Source: Mucilaginibacter celer
GTDB lineage: Bacteria; Bacteroidota; Bacteroidia; Sphingobacteriales; Sphingobacteriaceae
Length of the DNA: 64,000 bases
NCBI RefSeq assembly: GCF_003576455.2
Contig: NZ_CP032869.1
Location: forward strand, 6,138,001-6,202,000
Direction of reading: 5' to 3'
The translations under genes and the position numbers were made by a program. Below are positions 8,089 through 60,999 of this stretch, in pieces (position 1 is the first letter of the stretch; every line of letters starts with the position of its first letter). Below the pieces are notes generated by a model. That model did not search any database, was not told the origin of the DNA, and worked only from the letters and a program-made list of their open reading frames with translations.

Positions 8089-8661
8089 TTACCTGTACAA
8101 ACTTTTACTCTCAATAAACTTCAGCACCGCATCGGGCACAAAATACTGCACGTTCTTTTTTTCGGCGATGGATTTGCGGATAAAGGTTGCAGATAGTTCC
8201 ATCTGTGGCGTCATGGTAATGGTTACCGAAGGATGATCGGCCAGTTCGGCGTTTTCATAACCGGGGCGTGGGTATACGTAGATGCGGTAATCGCGCAGAA
8301 TAAGCTTATAATTTTTCCATTTATGCAGGGTGCCCAGGTTATCCGACCCCATAATGAGGGCAAATTCATGCTCGGGGTATTTTTCCTTTAAGTGGGCAAG
8401 GGTATCAATAGTGTACGATGGCTGAGGCAGTTTTAACTCCACATCGCTTACGCTGATATTGGTTGCATTATCGGTAGCCAGGCGGGCCATCTCCAGCCTG
8501 TCGTAGGTATTGATCAGGTCGCCGTATTTTTTCAGCGGGTTTTGGGGCGATACCACCAACCACACCTTATCAAGCGTGGTATGGTTAGCCATGTAGTTAG
8601 CTATAATTAAATGCCCTATGTGTATAGGATTAAATGAACCAAACAGTAAGCCAATTTTCAT
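8089..8661 (-). CDS. nadD: Nicotinate (nicotinamide) nucleotide adenylyltransferase
   Basis: A 190-residue nucleotidyltransferase that transfers AMP to nicotinate mononucleotide, the penultimate step of NAD synthesis. The nucleotide-binding motif GSFNPIHIGH sits at residues 8-17 and the C-terminal SATFIRKS motif closes the site. The length matches the NadD family. The gene is followed upstream (higher coordinates) by an inverted-repeat-bounded relic and then gmk, so it was probably once closer to gmk. Confidence 0.93.
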   Translation of the reverse strand: MKIGLLFGSFNPIHIGHLIIANYMANHTTLDKVWLVVSPQNPLKKYGDLINTYDRLEMARLATDNATNISVSDVELKLPQPSYTIDTLAHLKEKYPEHEFALIMGSDNLGTLHKWKNYKLILRDYRIYVYPRPGYENAELADHPSVTITMTPQMELSATFIRKSIAEKKNVQYFVPDAVLKFIESKSLYR

Positions 8662-8663
8662 AT

Positions 8664-9139
8664 CAGTTTGCAGTTTTCAGTTGGTAGTTTGCAGTTGGTT
8701 AACGGCAACTGTTTTTACAGGGTTTGGCCTTTTTATTGGCCTGCCCCAAATTTTCCGGGATTGTCGATCATGTATTGAACGAGACGTCCTATTTCATCAG
8801 ACAATGAGTGTAATTTATCGTAAACCTCGTTGTTAATATAATTACAAGCCAACGAAAACTCAAGCCAGCCTTGTGTTTCGCTGTTTTCCATATCAACGTC
8901 GGTTAATTTGCTTACAAAGTGATTTGGAAAGCGACGCTTGCGATAAGCTTCAATAGTACAGATGTTTGCAGATCTTGATGATCGGCGGATTTGTCTATGA
9001 GTGAAAATGTTTCTTCTTTCGGAAATTGTTTTGTGACAAAATAAATCTCCATAGCAAGACTAAAACTTTTCTTGTACAGCAATAAGTCTTTATAAGTTCC
9101 CATTAATTACTGCAAACTGCCAACAGAAAACTGCAAACT
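8664..9139. mobile_element. Inverted-repeat-bounded cassette carrying a four-helix-bundle pseudogene
   Basis: Two arms, 8665-8695 and 9109-9139, are inverted copies matching at 29 of 31 positions and built from the word AGTTTGCAGTTTTC. They exactly enclose the four-helix-bundle pseudogene. The left arm begins 3 bases after the nadD start codon and the right arm overlaps the gmk stop by 2 bases. The arrangement resembles intervening sequences of 23S rRNA (a small four-helix-bundle ORF inside a long stem), here placed between protein genes. Mobility is inference; no transposase is present. Confidence 0.55.
8733..9103 (-). pseudogene. Frameshifted four-helix-bundle protein (23S rRNA intervening-sequence protein family)
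   Basis: Starting at ATG 9101-9103 the frame reads MGTYKDLLLYKKSFSLAMEI and FPKEETFSLIDK, then leaves the family sequence. Shifting by one base from about 8995 restores it: RRSSRS, EAYRKRRFPNHFVSKLTD, ENSETQGWLEFSLA and SDEIGRLVQYMIDNPGKF, ending at TAA 8733-8735. One missing A in the AAA run coding for Lys-Ile explains the break. The rejoined product would be about 122 residues, normal for this family (PF05635/TIGR02436). It could also be a sequencing error, which re-reading would settle. Confidence 0.75.
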
Positions 9140-9710
9140 ATTTTGTTAAAAACGCGCTCACCAATTCCTCAGCTTCTTTGCAAGCCGTTTCAAGATCGTA
9201 ATTTTTTAGGATAATATCAAACTGGGGTGCGTATTTAAGCTCTTTTTCGGCTTTTGCAAAACGTTCCTGCAGTTTTTCTTCGCTATCGGTACCGCGGCCG
9301 GTTAACCGCTCAATCAAAACCTCCAATGATGGCGGCTGAACAAATATAGCCAATGCCTGTGCGCCGTATTTACGCTTAAGGTGCAGGCCGCCCTCTACAT
9401 CAATATCAAATATCACGGTTTTACCGTTTGCCCAGATGCGTTCAATCTCGGTACGCAGGGTACCATAAAATGTACCGGTGTAAACCTCTTCAAATTCTAC
9501 AAATTGCTTTTTGGCAATTCGGTGCAAAAACTCTTCCTTGCTGATGAAGTAATAATCCTGTTCATGTACTTCATCGCCACGGCGCTCGCGCGTGGTGGCC
9601 GAAATAGAAAATTCGAGCGTAGGGATCTTCCCCAGCAAATGGTGTACTATAGTGGTTTTACCCGCTCCCGACGGAGCCGAAAATATGATGAGTTTACCGT
9701 TTTGGCTCAT
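9138..9710 (-). CDS. gmk: Guanylate kinase
   Basis: A 190-residue kinase converting GMP to GDP with ATP. The Walker A loop APSGAGK is at residues 12-18, followed by family motifs SISATTRERRGDEVHEQDYY and FDIDVEGG. Length and motif order match bacterial Gmk. The 3' end touches the inverted repeat of the neighbouring cassette. The gene shares direction with yicC upstream; the two are commonly neighbours in bacteria. Confidence 0.95.
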   Translation of the reverse strand: MSQNGKLIIFSAPSGAGKTTIVHHLLGKIPTLEFSISATTRERRGDEVHEQDYYFISKEEFLHRIAKKQFVEFEEVYTGTFYGTLRTEIERIWANGKTVIFDIDVEGGLHLKRKYGAQALAIFVQPPSLEVLIERLTGRGTDSEEKLQERFAKAEKELKYAPQFDIILKNYDLETACKEAEELVSAFLTK

Positions 9711-16080: not shown

Positions 16081-16371
16081 AGCTTTTCCCTAATTATGAT
16101 AACAGTTAAACAAGTAGATGCAACACAAAAAAGGTTCAGGGGTTTTAGATCAAAGCTATTAGTATACTGAATAGCATACCAGTTGGAGTTTTCCACAGGA
16201 TGAAAGAAAACGGCCCAAGCTGAACTTACCAGAATTTAAATTAGCTGTTTTTTAGCTGTTTATGGTGTTAATAACTCAAAAGTAGTGCAATCGAAATAGC
16301 GATAAGGGGAATATATTTTAGCATGACGAAGGTGGCTACCCTAAAACTGTAGTGCCGAACTAAATTCAGGT

Positions 16372-16531
16372 GCTGGTGCACGCGTGCCGCGTATACCTTT
16401 ATGAGAGTTATATAAAGATCACATCAGGACAATGCCGAAATAACTGGGACCCATATAAGGGCGCAGACGGATGCCGGGAGATAAATGGCGACGATGTGCA
16501 TACGGGGTACACGCGGCACGCGTGCACCAGC
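16372..16531. repeat. 26-base inverted repeat around a 108-base core
   Basis: The arms 16372-16397 and 16506-16531 (both containing GCACGCGTGCCGCG or its complement) match at 25 of 26 positions. The core carries no ORF. This element and the following terminator are all I can find in the 546-base gap between nrdJ and the coiled-coil gene; the rest is AT-rich with no clear signal. Confidence 0.75.
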
Positions 16532-16560
16532 AATAAAAAGAAATGAAAACTCATCAAATA

Positions 16561-19472: not shown

Positions 19473-19703
19473 TTTTGTCTGAACTCGAATTTATTGAATT
19501 AATGAATTGACAGAATAAATAAGTAAGTTCTGATAATACCCCCAAATTCGAGTTCAGACAAAACACTTGCATGCGGTCGTGGAGACACGACCGCCGGGGT
19601 AAAAGAAAGCTAAGCAAATTCGATAAATTCTAATAATTCCCCCAAATTCTGGTTCAGACAAATTCTGCTAATCCTAAAATTCTGTAAATTCTGATTCAGA
19701 CAA
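19473..19703. repeat. Array of inverted repeats of the word GTCTGAACTCGAATTT plus a perfect hairpin
   Basis: Perfect 20-base arms at 19473-19492 and 19544-19563. A separate perfect stem of 9 bp with a GAGA loop is at 19573-19594 (GCGGTCGTG-GAGA-CACGACCGC). Further copies of the word CTGRTTCAGACAA occur at 19646-19660 and 19690-19703. The array fills the convergent gap between the GHL10 gene and rnc and could terminate transcription from both sides. Confidence 0.75.
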
Positions 19704-30457: not shown

Positions 30458-30753
30458 AGTGAGTAGTTGATTGGGTTGATTAGGTGAGTGGTTGTGTTTT
30501 TTGATAAATAATTTTCACTGCCGCGGGTTTAGCGCAGCGTAACCCGTGGTGTAAAATAGTTCGGGTCTCTGACCCGAGTGGAACTTAAGTTATAAACTGA
30601 AGTCATGCCTAACCATAGGTTACGTTGCGCTAAACCTGCGGTAGCTATTCAGCTATCTTCATAAACAGAAAAAGGCGCAAACTGTGCGCCTTTTTCTGTT
30701 TTATTTATTTGTGAGACAACCATTCACCTAATCAACCCAATCAACCACTCACT
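30458..30753. repeat. Composite palindromic element, copy A
   Basis: Outer arms 30458-30494 and 30717-30753 (word GTTGATTGGGTTGATTAGG) match at 35 of 37 positions. Inside lies a second palindrome with arms 30522-30550 and 30614-30642, built from GGGTTTAGCGCAGCGTAACC, around the hairpin CGGGTCTCTGACCCG. A related element lies at about 44355-44765. This and the terminator at 30663-30701 fill the 331-base gap between lutB and the M28 peptidase gene. Confidence 0.8.
30663..30701 (-). terminator. Terminator of the M28 peptidase gene
   Basis: A perfect 17-base stem (AAACAGAAAAAGGCGCA and complement) with a 5-base loop and flanking A/T runs; likely works in both directions. Confidence 0.8.
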
Positions 30754-35341: not shown

Positions 35342-35423
35342 GGTTTTTCTTTAATGTGCAAATTACAGATGTGCAAATATGCAGATGAAAAAACGAATAT
35401 GATAAACTCAATGAACGGGTCAA

Positions 35424-35471
35424 ATTATAAATGTGCAGATGACTTATTGCATTCATCTGCACATTTATAAT
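35424..35471. repeat. Perfect hairpin between accB and accC
   Basis: Perfect 19-base arms at 35424-35442 and 35453-35471 with a 10-base loop, built from the word ATGTGCAGATG. Further copies of the word lie at 35347-35385 and 36009-36050. In mRNA it would form a strong stem in the accB-accC spacer. Confidence 0.75.
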
Positions 35472-35490
35472 CTGCACATCCGCACATCAA

Positions 35491-40713: not shown

Positions 40714-40824
40714 TGAACTTGTTTTTTATTAATCTGTCTTTTTTAAAGACTTTGTTGAATCGTTTTAGTTTAAATTGTCTGAACCGGGATTTGGGGGGAT
40801 TAGGAGGATTTATAGGATTTTTTG

Positions 40825-40912
40825 TCTGAACCGGAATTTATCGAATTAAAGAATTTATGGAATTTGCTTAGCATTCTGTTCATTCCTTTAATTCGATAAA
40901 TTCCGGTTCAGA
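40825..40912. repeat. Perfect 27-base inverted repeat, word TCTGAACCGGAATTT
   Basis: Arms 40825-40851 and 40886-40912 are exact reverse complements with a 34-base loop. It is one of two independent palindromes in the 450-base gap between the S8 and ALDH genes. Confidence 0.85.
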
Positions 40913-41040
40913 ACCTAACTAATCTCTATTCTCCAATCACTAATCTCTCAATAAGGGCGTTGCCTGCGGCCGGGCTATGCGCTCATACTGCGCAGGCCTT
41001 AGCCACGAGGCCGGTATCCGCTCCTATCCCTAACGCTTTT

Positions 41041-41157
41041 TCTGAACCGGGATTTGGGTGGATTATGGGGATGGGCAGGATTTTTCCCTTATCAATTTAT
41101 TAAAAAGGACAAGCAAATCCTATAAACCCCCATAATCCACCCAAATCCCGGTTCAGA
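41041..41157. repeat. Perfect 30-base inverted repeat, word TCTGAACCGGGATTTGGG
   Basis: Arms 41041-41070 and 41128-41157 are exact reverse complements. The same opening word begins the repeats at 40779 and 19442, but the interior sequence differs. The stretch between the two palindromes (40918-41040) holds GAGATTAG-type words and a GC-rich segment with no ORF. Confidence 0.85.
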
Positions 41158-41163
41158 CAACCT

Positions 41164-59859: not shown

Positions 59860-60789
59860 TCAGCCCTTCAAATCAATCAACTTCTCCGCCATCACCTCGC
59901 TAATCTTCCTGTACGAATCAAACGTCCACCCGGCCACATGCGGGCTCAGAAGTACTTTACCACTTTGTTTCAACTCATCAAACCAGCTTTGCTCGGCCAG
60001 CGACGGGAATTTTTCAACTTCCAGCACATCCAAACCGGCACCTAAAATTTTGCCTTCGCGAATGGCGTTCAGTATAGCCGATACTTTAGCGGTTTTTCCG
60101 CGCGATGTGTTCAGGAAAAATATCGGTTTTTTAAAGTGGAACAGGTATTCATCATCCACCAGTCCGTCGGTTTCGGTGGTTAGGGGGATGTGGAGGCTGA
60201 GCACATCGCTATGCTTAACAATTTCTTCCATGCTCACTTCACGTGCGTATTTATCGCTGAAACCGGTTTTATATTTATCGTAAGCGATAACATTTACCTG
60301 GAAGCCCGAAAGCTTGCGTGCAAAGCTGCTGCCCATATGCCCATAGCCTATAATGCCCACGGTTTTACCTTTCAGCTCGTAACCACGGTTGGCTTCACGC
60401 TTCCATTCGCCATTGCGGATCTCGGCATCGCCACGGTTTAAGTTGTTCATCAGCGAAAGCAACAAACCTATAGCATGTTCGCCCACTGCATCCGAGTTAC
60501 CTTCGGGCGCGTTAATGAGGTTAATGCCTTTTTCAAGCGCGTAAACTTCATCAATATTATCCATCCCGGCACCGGCACGGGCTATGAATTGTAAATTGGT
60601 AGCCGCATCGAGCACAGCCCTATCAACCCTGAATTTTGAACGGATCACCAAACCGGCGTAATCGCCTATAATTTGCATGGCTTCGTCAACCTTAATCAGC
60701 GGACGGTAATCGCAGGTGTAACCTTTAGCTTCGGCCATTTCCATAAATATGGCGTGCACATCATCAACAATCAGAATATTATTTTTCAA
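59860..60789 (-). CDS. D-2-hydroxyacid dehydrogenase family protein (phosphoglycerate dehydrogenase-like)
   Basis: A 309-residue NAD-dependent dehydrogenase. Nucleotide loop VGIIGYGHMGSSFA, substrate Arg in FIARAGAGMDN, acidic partner in GLDVLEVEKFP and catalytic His in LSPHVAGWT. It reads LKNNILIVDDVHAIF with TTG as start at 60787-60789; the next in-frame ATG is 15 codons later and would cut the fold. Could be SerA-like or a general 2-oxoacid reductase. It is bounded by REP copies on both sides. Confidence 0.85.
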   Translation of the reverse strand: MKNNILIVDDVHAIFMEMAEAKGYTCDYRPLIKVDEAMQIIGDYAGLVIRSKFRVDRAVLDAATNLQFIARAGAGMDNIDEVYALEKGINLINAPEGNSDAVGEHAIGLLLSLMNNLNRGDAEIRNGEWKREANRGYELKGKTVGIIGYGHMGSSFARKLSGFQVNVIAYDKYKTGFSDKYAREVSMEEIVKHSDVLSLHIPLTTETDGLVDDEYLFHFKKPIFFLNTSRGKTAKVSAILNAIREGKILGAGLDVLEVEKFPSLAEQSWFDELKQSGKVLLSPHVAGWTFDSYRKISEVMAEKLIDLKG

Positions 60790-60907
60790 CGCAGTATTAA
60801 TTTTTGTATTAGGGGATAAAAGTACGAATTGCTACCGTATTAGCTGAGAGGGTTTTATAATAGGAGAGCGATTTTTACTTTGGGGATAGAAAAACGTTGA
60901 TTCTCGC

Positions 60908-60999
60908 CACCACGTCATTGCGAGGTACGAAGCAATCGCACATAAGCTGGTCCGCTCTGTATAGTTCGCGATTGCTTCGTTCCTCGCAATGACGTGGTG
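60908..60999. repeat. REP element, CGTCATTGCGAGGTACGAAGCAATC type, copy 2
   Basis: Inverted 32-base arms 60908-60939 and 60968-60999 with one mismatch. Confidence 0.85.

Follow-up and report, generated by a model that had tools for sequence, protein, structure and literature searches.

The intervening sequences (IVSs) in the 23S rRNA of Leptospira, Coxiella, and other bacteria are the closest known kind of element to the one analyzed here and share its plan of arms around a PF05635-type gene in a host transcript. According to the available part of PMC4990558, the Coxiella IVS contains tandem heptamers ahead of its S23 gene, the open reading frame of this IVS is expendable, the S23/IVP four-helix-bundle (4HB) proteins have no known function, and a 4HB protein from Xanthomonas forms a toroidal homopentamer. 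The entries of two solved relatives, 2rld and 2gsc, contain five chains each. PF05635 also resembles Avd of the diversity-generating retroelements (available part of PMC10053308); the NCBIfam Avd model gave the 4HB subfamily studied here 30 bits compared to a cut-off of 80. A different kind of dispersed element, the REPIN, consists of inverted doublets of short extragenic words that are tied to a cognate gene (available part of PMC3116915).

A 4HB cassette between gmk and nadD

The window, which is the whole stretch of 64,000 nt from Mucilaginibacter celer that was analyzed, is part of a genome with a single contig of 7.15 Mb. This genome is designated G000; other G and L labels indicate other genomes and loci. 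Between gmk and nadD, the window contains a 4HB gene on the strand of both neighbors (Table 1). The sequence-only reading that preceded this analysis described inverted arms around this gene, and these were borne out, with 31 nt, 94% complementarity, and 413 nt between them. A looser alignment lengthens the arms to positions 8665-8710 and 9095-9139. The reading placed the ends of the cassette 3 bases from the nadD start and within the gmk stop, which agrees with the positions of the two codons, 8659-8661 for the nadD start and 9138-9140 for the gmk stop. The plan is an arm, a 4HB gene, and an inverted arm, fitted in sense between a stop codon and the next start codon.

Table 1. Positions of the cassette, its host genes, and further hairpins in the window
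Feature	Positions	Strand	Basis
nadD, cytidylyltransferase-like by Pfam, downstream host gene	8089..8661	-	
Downstream arm on the nadD side, heptads of the CAGTTTG word	8665..8695	.	inverted-pair alignment
4HB gene (PF05635/TIGR02436), one-base frameshift between 8993 and 9020	8733..9103	-	
Upstream arm next to gmk, same word array in inverted orientation, overlapping the gmk stop codon	9109..9139	.	
gmk, guanylate kinase, upstream host gene	9138..9710	-	
Empty hairpin with the word GTTCATR in the spacer of gmk and its neighbor (read as yicC), word of 4HB element L001	9707..9794	.	
Empty hairpin with the word TTAGAGATTAG next to the start of the gene read as yicC, word of 4HB element L002	10693..10854	.	
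Perfect inverted pair of 20 nt with 51 nt between, GxxExxY-type cap GTCTGAACTCGAATTT (compare L429, L437)	19473..19563	.	
Hairpin with the 9-nt word GTTGATTRG, as in 4HB elements L182 and L184 of other genomes	30458..30753	.	
Empty word hairpin ATGTGCAG between accB and accC (by reading), word of 4HB element L004	35340..35490	.	
Hairpin of GxxExxY type by its word and outer cap (compare L286)	40775..41160	.	

The first piece of the gene scored 27.9 bits against PF05635, below the cut-off of 33.8, and the search of the whole genome gave 44.6 bits, above the cut-off, and 25.4 bits for its two pieces. In the sequence as assembled, the gene is interrupted by the lack of one base, as had been read: it occupies two frames, measures 371 bases from start to stop compared to 372 in the intact ortholog of G013, and aligns to this ortholog with a single gap, on the side of the window. 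According to the reading, the arms could pair if transcribed, and in the RNA fold of the stretch they were paired with the gene in the loop (z, −8.1). Rfam gave no match at gathering score anywhere in the window. When 48 larger genes of the window were scanned for arms, the median score was 9.5, and just two genes, both adjoining other hairpin repeats, scored above 12.5.

The cassette possesses the stem-forming inverted arms and the S23/IVP protein of a 23S rRNA IVS, although the frame of the window copy is broken while its orthologs are intact. In contrast to the IVS, it is located between two protein genes instead of within an rRNA gene, and elements of this type occur several times per genome with a word tied to the protein subfamily. 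The claim of an IVS-like layout outside of rRNA was supported.

Other 4HB genes have the same layout

The PF05635 search identified five genes in G000, including the window copy. A check of the other 4HB genes for flanking arms, as proposed with the reading, found them at four of four, with arm scores of 25 to 30 compared to 13 or less for shuffled flanks. The words of these four genes were all different, GTTCATR, TTAGAGATTAGAGG, GTTCATTAGTTCACTGG, and ATGTGCAG, and all five 4HB genes of the genome have inverted arms, each with its own word.

PF05635 matches were present in 58 of 60 genomes of the same genus or class, including G000. The best-scoring matches listed for the 60 genomes yielded 133 loci, with the broken gene of the window left out. 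Among these matches listed, arms scoring at least 14 were present at 113 of the 133 4HB loci (median, 20), the score was below 14 at 20, and in-frame stops were found in 7. Shuffled flanks gave 1/133 and mispaired flanks 30/657, the latter as expected if words recur. Addition of 30 non-duplicate loci from further searches resulted in 163 4HB genes from 66 genomes within the genus or class, and arms were carried by 139 of these genes. Another set comprised 80 named loci, nearly all from Bacteroidota, one of which was dropped at a contig end; here, arms were found at 50 of 79 genes and at 0 of 79 with shuffled flanks, while 29 of 79 remained below the threshold. The two loci of this set from outside of the phylum, L359 in Ignavibacteriae and L394 in Syntrophobacterales, had arms scoring 28.5 and 24.5, respectively.

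The controls with shuffled flanks and with window genes rule out chance or shuffled base composition as the source of the arms. The window cassette is one of a large, uniform class and not an isolated insertion. Searches of an open-license library listed no account of such elements.

Anatomy of the arms and their placement in operons

The same base recurred within the arms with a frequency of 0.62 at a shift of 7 and of 0.61 at a shift of 14, compared to about 0.30 in shuffled arms. A period of 7 was the best one in 153 of 190 arms; a second measure gave this period for 225 of 278 arms and a median array of 32 nt. Four whole heptads were present in 98 of 199 arrays and five in 40 of 199, so that an arm represents about 4 to 5 heptads. 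Arrays of this kind distinguish the words of the 4HB elements from those of REPINs. The 5' arm contained more G than C in 133 of 139 elements.

Among the 139 armed elements, 127 were in sense between co-directional genes and none was antisense, with 11 at mixed junctions and 1 unclear. “Neighbor” means the longest open frame of at least 70 codons near the arm, within 200 nt; an extension of this search to 600 nt gave 122 sense, 0 antisense, and 17 mixed cases. Since 75% of the neighboring gene pairs in the window are already co-directional, the striking part of this result is sense versus antisense. The left arm started at a median of 2 nt past the upstream stop codon and within 30 nt in 131 of 133 cases (125 of 128 with the wider neighbor search), and the right arm ended at a median of 5 nt before the first downstream ATG, within 30 nt in 109 of 133.

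The sequence-only reading considered the paired arms as a possible target of RNase III. The two arms of an element gave a pairing score of 21.4 compared to 19.7 for arms taken from other elements with the same word, and in 55 of 90 elements, the own pair scored higher than the mean of the cross pairs. A G-U bias on the sense strand was not found in the mismatches of the arms, with 89 of the sense type versus 115 of the antisense type. Neither the wobble-bias test nor the own-versus-cross test indicated selection on specific base pairs of the arms, and neither supported selection for arm pairing in RNA. Since own and cross arms are nearly equal and a G-U bias was not seen, a shared word is a better explanation of the arms than selection that acts on an RNase III stem alone.

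Association of words with protein subfamilies

Protein identity and word similarity were compared for 147 loci with scores of at least 13. For pairs with unrelated translated flanks, the Mantel r was 0.544, with 0.046 as the best of 500 shuffles, and the association was equally present (r, 0.543) in a preceding comparison without pairs of similar flanking DNA, although some same-locus pairs may remain in both comparisons because only about 1 to 1.5 kb of the flanks were fetched. Words were shared (cosine of >0.3) by 47 of 47 pairs with at least 80% protein identity, by 55% of those with 70 to 80%, 16% with 60 to 70%, and 15% with 50 to 60%, but by 1 to 3% of those under 50% and about 1% under 40%. 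Same-locus descent is unlikely to be the sole cause of shared words since the association stayed after both flank filters.

Outside of the genus, gmk or nadD was beside none of the 27 loci of relatives with 47 to 66% identity to the window's protein, 3 of which were cut by a contig end. From 28 phylum loci for this subfamily, 3 cut loci and 1 of the same genus were removed, and 17 of the remaining 24 had arms of at least 14. A CAGT core was present in 16 of these 17 armed relatives compared to 3 of 112 4HB elements below 45% identity. In the genus-and-class set, the core was absent from 9 of the 27 elements with at least 45% identity, and seven of the nine belonged to a subfamily of 57 to 65% identity with the word AGTCTTGAG. 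The gene downstream of the latter is presumably tag for DNA-3-methyladenine glycosylase, and the right arm can be read as the first codons of this gene in 7 of 8 loci. At L197 and L199 to L204, the end of the element appears to have become part of the host protein in this way.

In a lineage resembling L027, the words judged by eye were mostly AGATTTGAG where identity exceeded 70%; around 60%, AGTATTGAG was frequent, and other words occurred too. One subfamily with one word occupied two loci, at the folC side and at the metF side (names by reading). An exploratory ranking of residues that co-vary with the word, confounded by phylogeny, had its top columns just past the NIAEG motif and near the C terminus.

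The heptad word is a characteristic of the 4HB subfamily while the flanking genes differ. The sequence-only reading had regarded the arms as a local word of the insertion site, and this had to be given up: the word tracks the subfamily of the protein and is found again beside other flanking genes. Arms and gene travel together, so their pairing alone is co-inheritance, and an association of this kind does not prove recognition; the claim of recognition leans more on the counts of word copies in trans.

Word copies in trans and empty hairpins

Among 61 genomes of the genus, 11 contain the window's subfamily, and the CAGTTTG word had a median of 20 hits in these compared to 1 in the other 50 (p = 3e-6, not corrected for the tree). 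A second word had a median of 25 in 8 genomes with its cognate gene versus 2 in 53 without (p = 0.004, again not corrected for the tree). Membership in the window's subfamily required at least 74% identity. The counts include the own arms of the elements, which were 2 of 26 hits in G000 and 1 of 2 in G081. Of the two cross-controls, one was null (p = 0.47) and one weakly positive (p = 0.03); a control with the first word's pattern reversed gave 0 hits in most cases, with up to 15 in G026. At least 10 hits were present in 7 of the 50 genomes without the gene cognate to the first word and in 16 of the 53 without that of the second, and one genome with the second subfamily had zero hits of the second word.

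Direct tandem CAGTTTG heptads at L223 (G017:C14:637535-637662) provided 13 overlapping hits of the 18 in G017. A direct tandem array of the same heptad was also seen at G079:C18:40239-40285. The arrays in G017 and G079 are apparently word expansions.

Periodic arms were found in 8 of 43 hairpins of G000 and 24 of 75 of G026, in 800 kb each, and by reading, 4 of these 8 and 9 of these 24 bore the word of a known resident gene. The word AGTATCAAG of the 4HB locus L039 was present in five hairpins of G026 and in none of G000, where this subfamily is absent, again in 800 kb each. Arms without a gene between them, which had been named as a case that would speak against the reading, do occur in the window as the two empty hairpins beside gmk and yicC; they bear words of gene-bearing elements of this genome, and the finding is widened by them. 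Within the accB/accC hairpin, the best-paired part is at 35421-35474. The hairpin with the word GTTGATTRG has 220 nt between its arms, in which no 4HB gene was noticed.

The spacer of the hairpin between yicC and the window's gmk contains another hairpin word in G013 and G017, and that of the accB/accC hairpin contains another one in G013. As an observation by eye, no trace of the alternative word was present at these two spacers, as in a replacement of the word at a fixed site.

Dispersed inverted word doublets that follow a cognate gene are a feature shared with the REPIN/RAYT system, with exceptions and without tree correction. In contrast to that system, the cognate gene is a 4HB gene (PF05635) and not a Y1 (HUH) transposase gene, and it lies between the arms. 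Elsewhere in G000, three Y1_Tnp matches are present, one of them with REP-like flanks. A RAYT as the mover of the 4HB words was rejected because only this one of the three has such flanks and their sequence is different.

History and constraint at the nadD-gmk site

The nadD-gmk spacer was compared among relatives, as had been proposed, and the site is polymorphic. In 16 relatives from the genus, the gene was present in G012, G013, and G014 and absent from 12, and only the edge was available for G006. A CCCCTAAAGGGG hairpin was present instead of the gene in G017 and likewise in G010, G004, and seemingly G006; G017 and G013 are equally close to G000, each with 95% identity in gmk. Loci L058, L062, and L066 contain such a CCCCTAAAGGGG-type hairpin in this spacer, with the 4HB gene absent. 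G005 has an empty GTTCAT hairpin, and several relatives have short, plain spacers.

The window's subfamily was present in 11 of 61 genomes, including G000, and was between gmk and nadD in all 11; the other 50 genomes searched, some of which are incomplete, gave no match to it. A wider search added G179, also with the gene at nadD-gmk. The matches in the 10 other genomes and in G179 were all free of internal stops. Two copies, L187 in G012 and L293 in G179, remained below the arm thresholds of 13 and 14, with the words present by eye. For the subfamily, the median pN was 0.129 and the median pS 0.851 (55 pairs, 11 intact orthologs); pN/pS was finite in only 5 pairs, with a median of 0.039. The window's subfamily is under strong purifying selection, in contrast to the Coxiella IVS reading frame, which is called expendable in the available part of PMC4990558.

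Since the subfamily was at gmk-nadD in all 11 genomes and is strongly constrained, the element at this site looks old, vertically kept, and often lost. The reading had suggested a decayed insertion: decay of the window copy stands, since none of the 11 other genomes with the subfamily at this place has a stop inside the match, but an isolated or recent event does not, given the large class and a gene that looks long resident at nadD-gmk and repeatedly lost. Elsewhere, movement or replacement is seen, with one word at two loci and with hairpin words that differ at two spacers. A target duplication at the insertion point was not seen by eye in spacers that are too diverged between species. Table 5 of PMC5524665, as far as the available part of this source goes, lists under phage elements a gene for a four helix bundle protein that separates gmk from nadD in Flavobacterium columnare; it may be an element of the present kind rather than of a phage.

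GxxExxY genes as a second cargo

Genes of another family, GxxExxY (PF13366/TIGR04256; PDDEXK_3), from the same genus resemble the 4HB elements in word arms and sense placement. The set comprised 33 loci, from which 3 cut ones were removed and the fragment L289 was omitted; arms were present at 27 of 30 genes compared to 0 of 30 with shuffled flanks. Of the 27 armed elements, 24 were in sense between co-directional genes, 1 was antisense, and 2 were mixed or unclear. The protein is unrelated to the 4HB proteins, and instead of heptads, the arms judged by eye consist of units of about 8 to 9 nt plus an outer cap, for instance GTCTGAACC or TTTAACCACAGAG. Two hairpins of the window are of this type (Table 1); the longer one has 281 nt between its arms, and no gene was noticed inside either of them. 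At L288 and L289 (G000:C1:2329805-2331408), a GxxExxY gene is in two pieces about 1.2 kb apart, with an in-frame stop in one piece, and word arms were not found.

Interpretation and rival explanations

The best reading of these data is an rRNA-IVS architecture placed in mRNA operons, with arms made of protein-specific words that the protein would bind. We lean towards the cassette being a decayed, operon-embedded, IVS-like element in which the 4HB protein reads its own heptads and which is kept by protein and arms jointly. Such an element would lack a promoter of its own and be read as part of the operon mRNA. Its 4HB protein may recognize the heptads in both arms, in RNA or in single-stranded or duplex DNA, perhaps with one heptad per subunit of a pentamer, although arrays hold four whole heptads more often than five. 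The element could persist since protein and arms cooperate in its spread or protection, and the flush stem-loop between two reading frames would be harmless to both, similar to an IVS inside the 23S rRNA. The empty hairpins with the same word may then be non-autonomous derivatives served in trans. A broader version, which we put forward tentatively and rather doubt than assert, is that these are undescribed, RNA-level, operon-resident selfish elements of the Bacteroidota, in which a pentameric 4HB protein and the heptad “address” it reads diverge together, the rRNA IVSs are a minority that ended up in rRNA, and the GxxExxY elements are an independent second lineage.

The dispersed empty hairpins with the word of a resident gene, the word counts that track the cognate gene, the presence and words of hairpins that vary between close species at the same spacer, and the one subfamily with one word at the folC and metF sides (by reading) would also agree with a REPIN-like DNA element. 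Its arms would be recognized as DNA hairpins, possibly single stranded, and copied with the 4HB protein helping host enzymes, RNA would have no role, and the position in operons would be where insertions are tolerated. A strict sense orientation of 127 to 0 is unexpected at the level of DNA unless selection removes antisense copies, and 4HB proteins are not known to act as nucleases or transposases, so that this explanation is an unlikely one. Hairpins could instead serve the host as operon spacers by setting the ends or the stability of the mRNA, with the 4HB protein binding to its own arms and regulating the operon. The long residence and low pN relative to pS of the nadD-gmk copy, arms flush with both genes, and RNA folds in which the arms are paired (z, −8.1 and −3.8) fit such a service, but the 50 of 61 genomes, some incomplete, without a match to the subfamily, the variation of words and hairpins among close species at a given spacer, and broken copies, with in-frame stops in 7 of 133, make it improbable. 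The least probable explanation, to which we give very little credit, regards the arms as mere slippage-prone simple repeats, the 4HB genes as hitchhikers, and the match of word and protein as shared descent of linked DNA. It would account for arms built from arrays of short units and for own arms whose fit hardly exceeds that of arms taken from other elements with the same word. It would not account for the 7-nt periodicity and inverted pairing on either side of 139 of 163 genes, for the CAGT core that 16 of 17 armed relatives outside of the genus have retained, or for the word counts in trans.

The pairing of subfamily and heptad word offers an immediate candidate binding target for each 4HB protein, by which the function of a protein family that is common in this group and has solved relatives becomes testable. 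It would tie the IVSs of rRNA to elements in mRNA that are far more numerous and account for a share of the odd inverted repeats in the operon spacers of these bacteria.

Other repeats in the window

Two further repeats of the window are apart from the elements described above. At 59860-60999, hairpin-forming CGTCATTGCGAGGNACGAAGCAATC palindromic repeats are located on either side of a gene and represent a family apart from the heptad words. An inverted pair of 27 nt, with 108 nt between the two copies and no periodic units, is present at 16371-16532.
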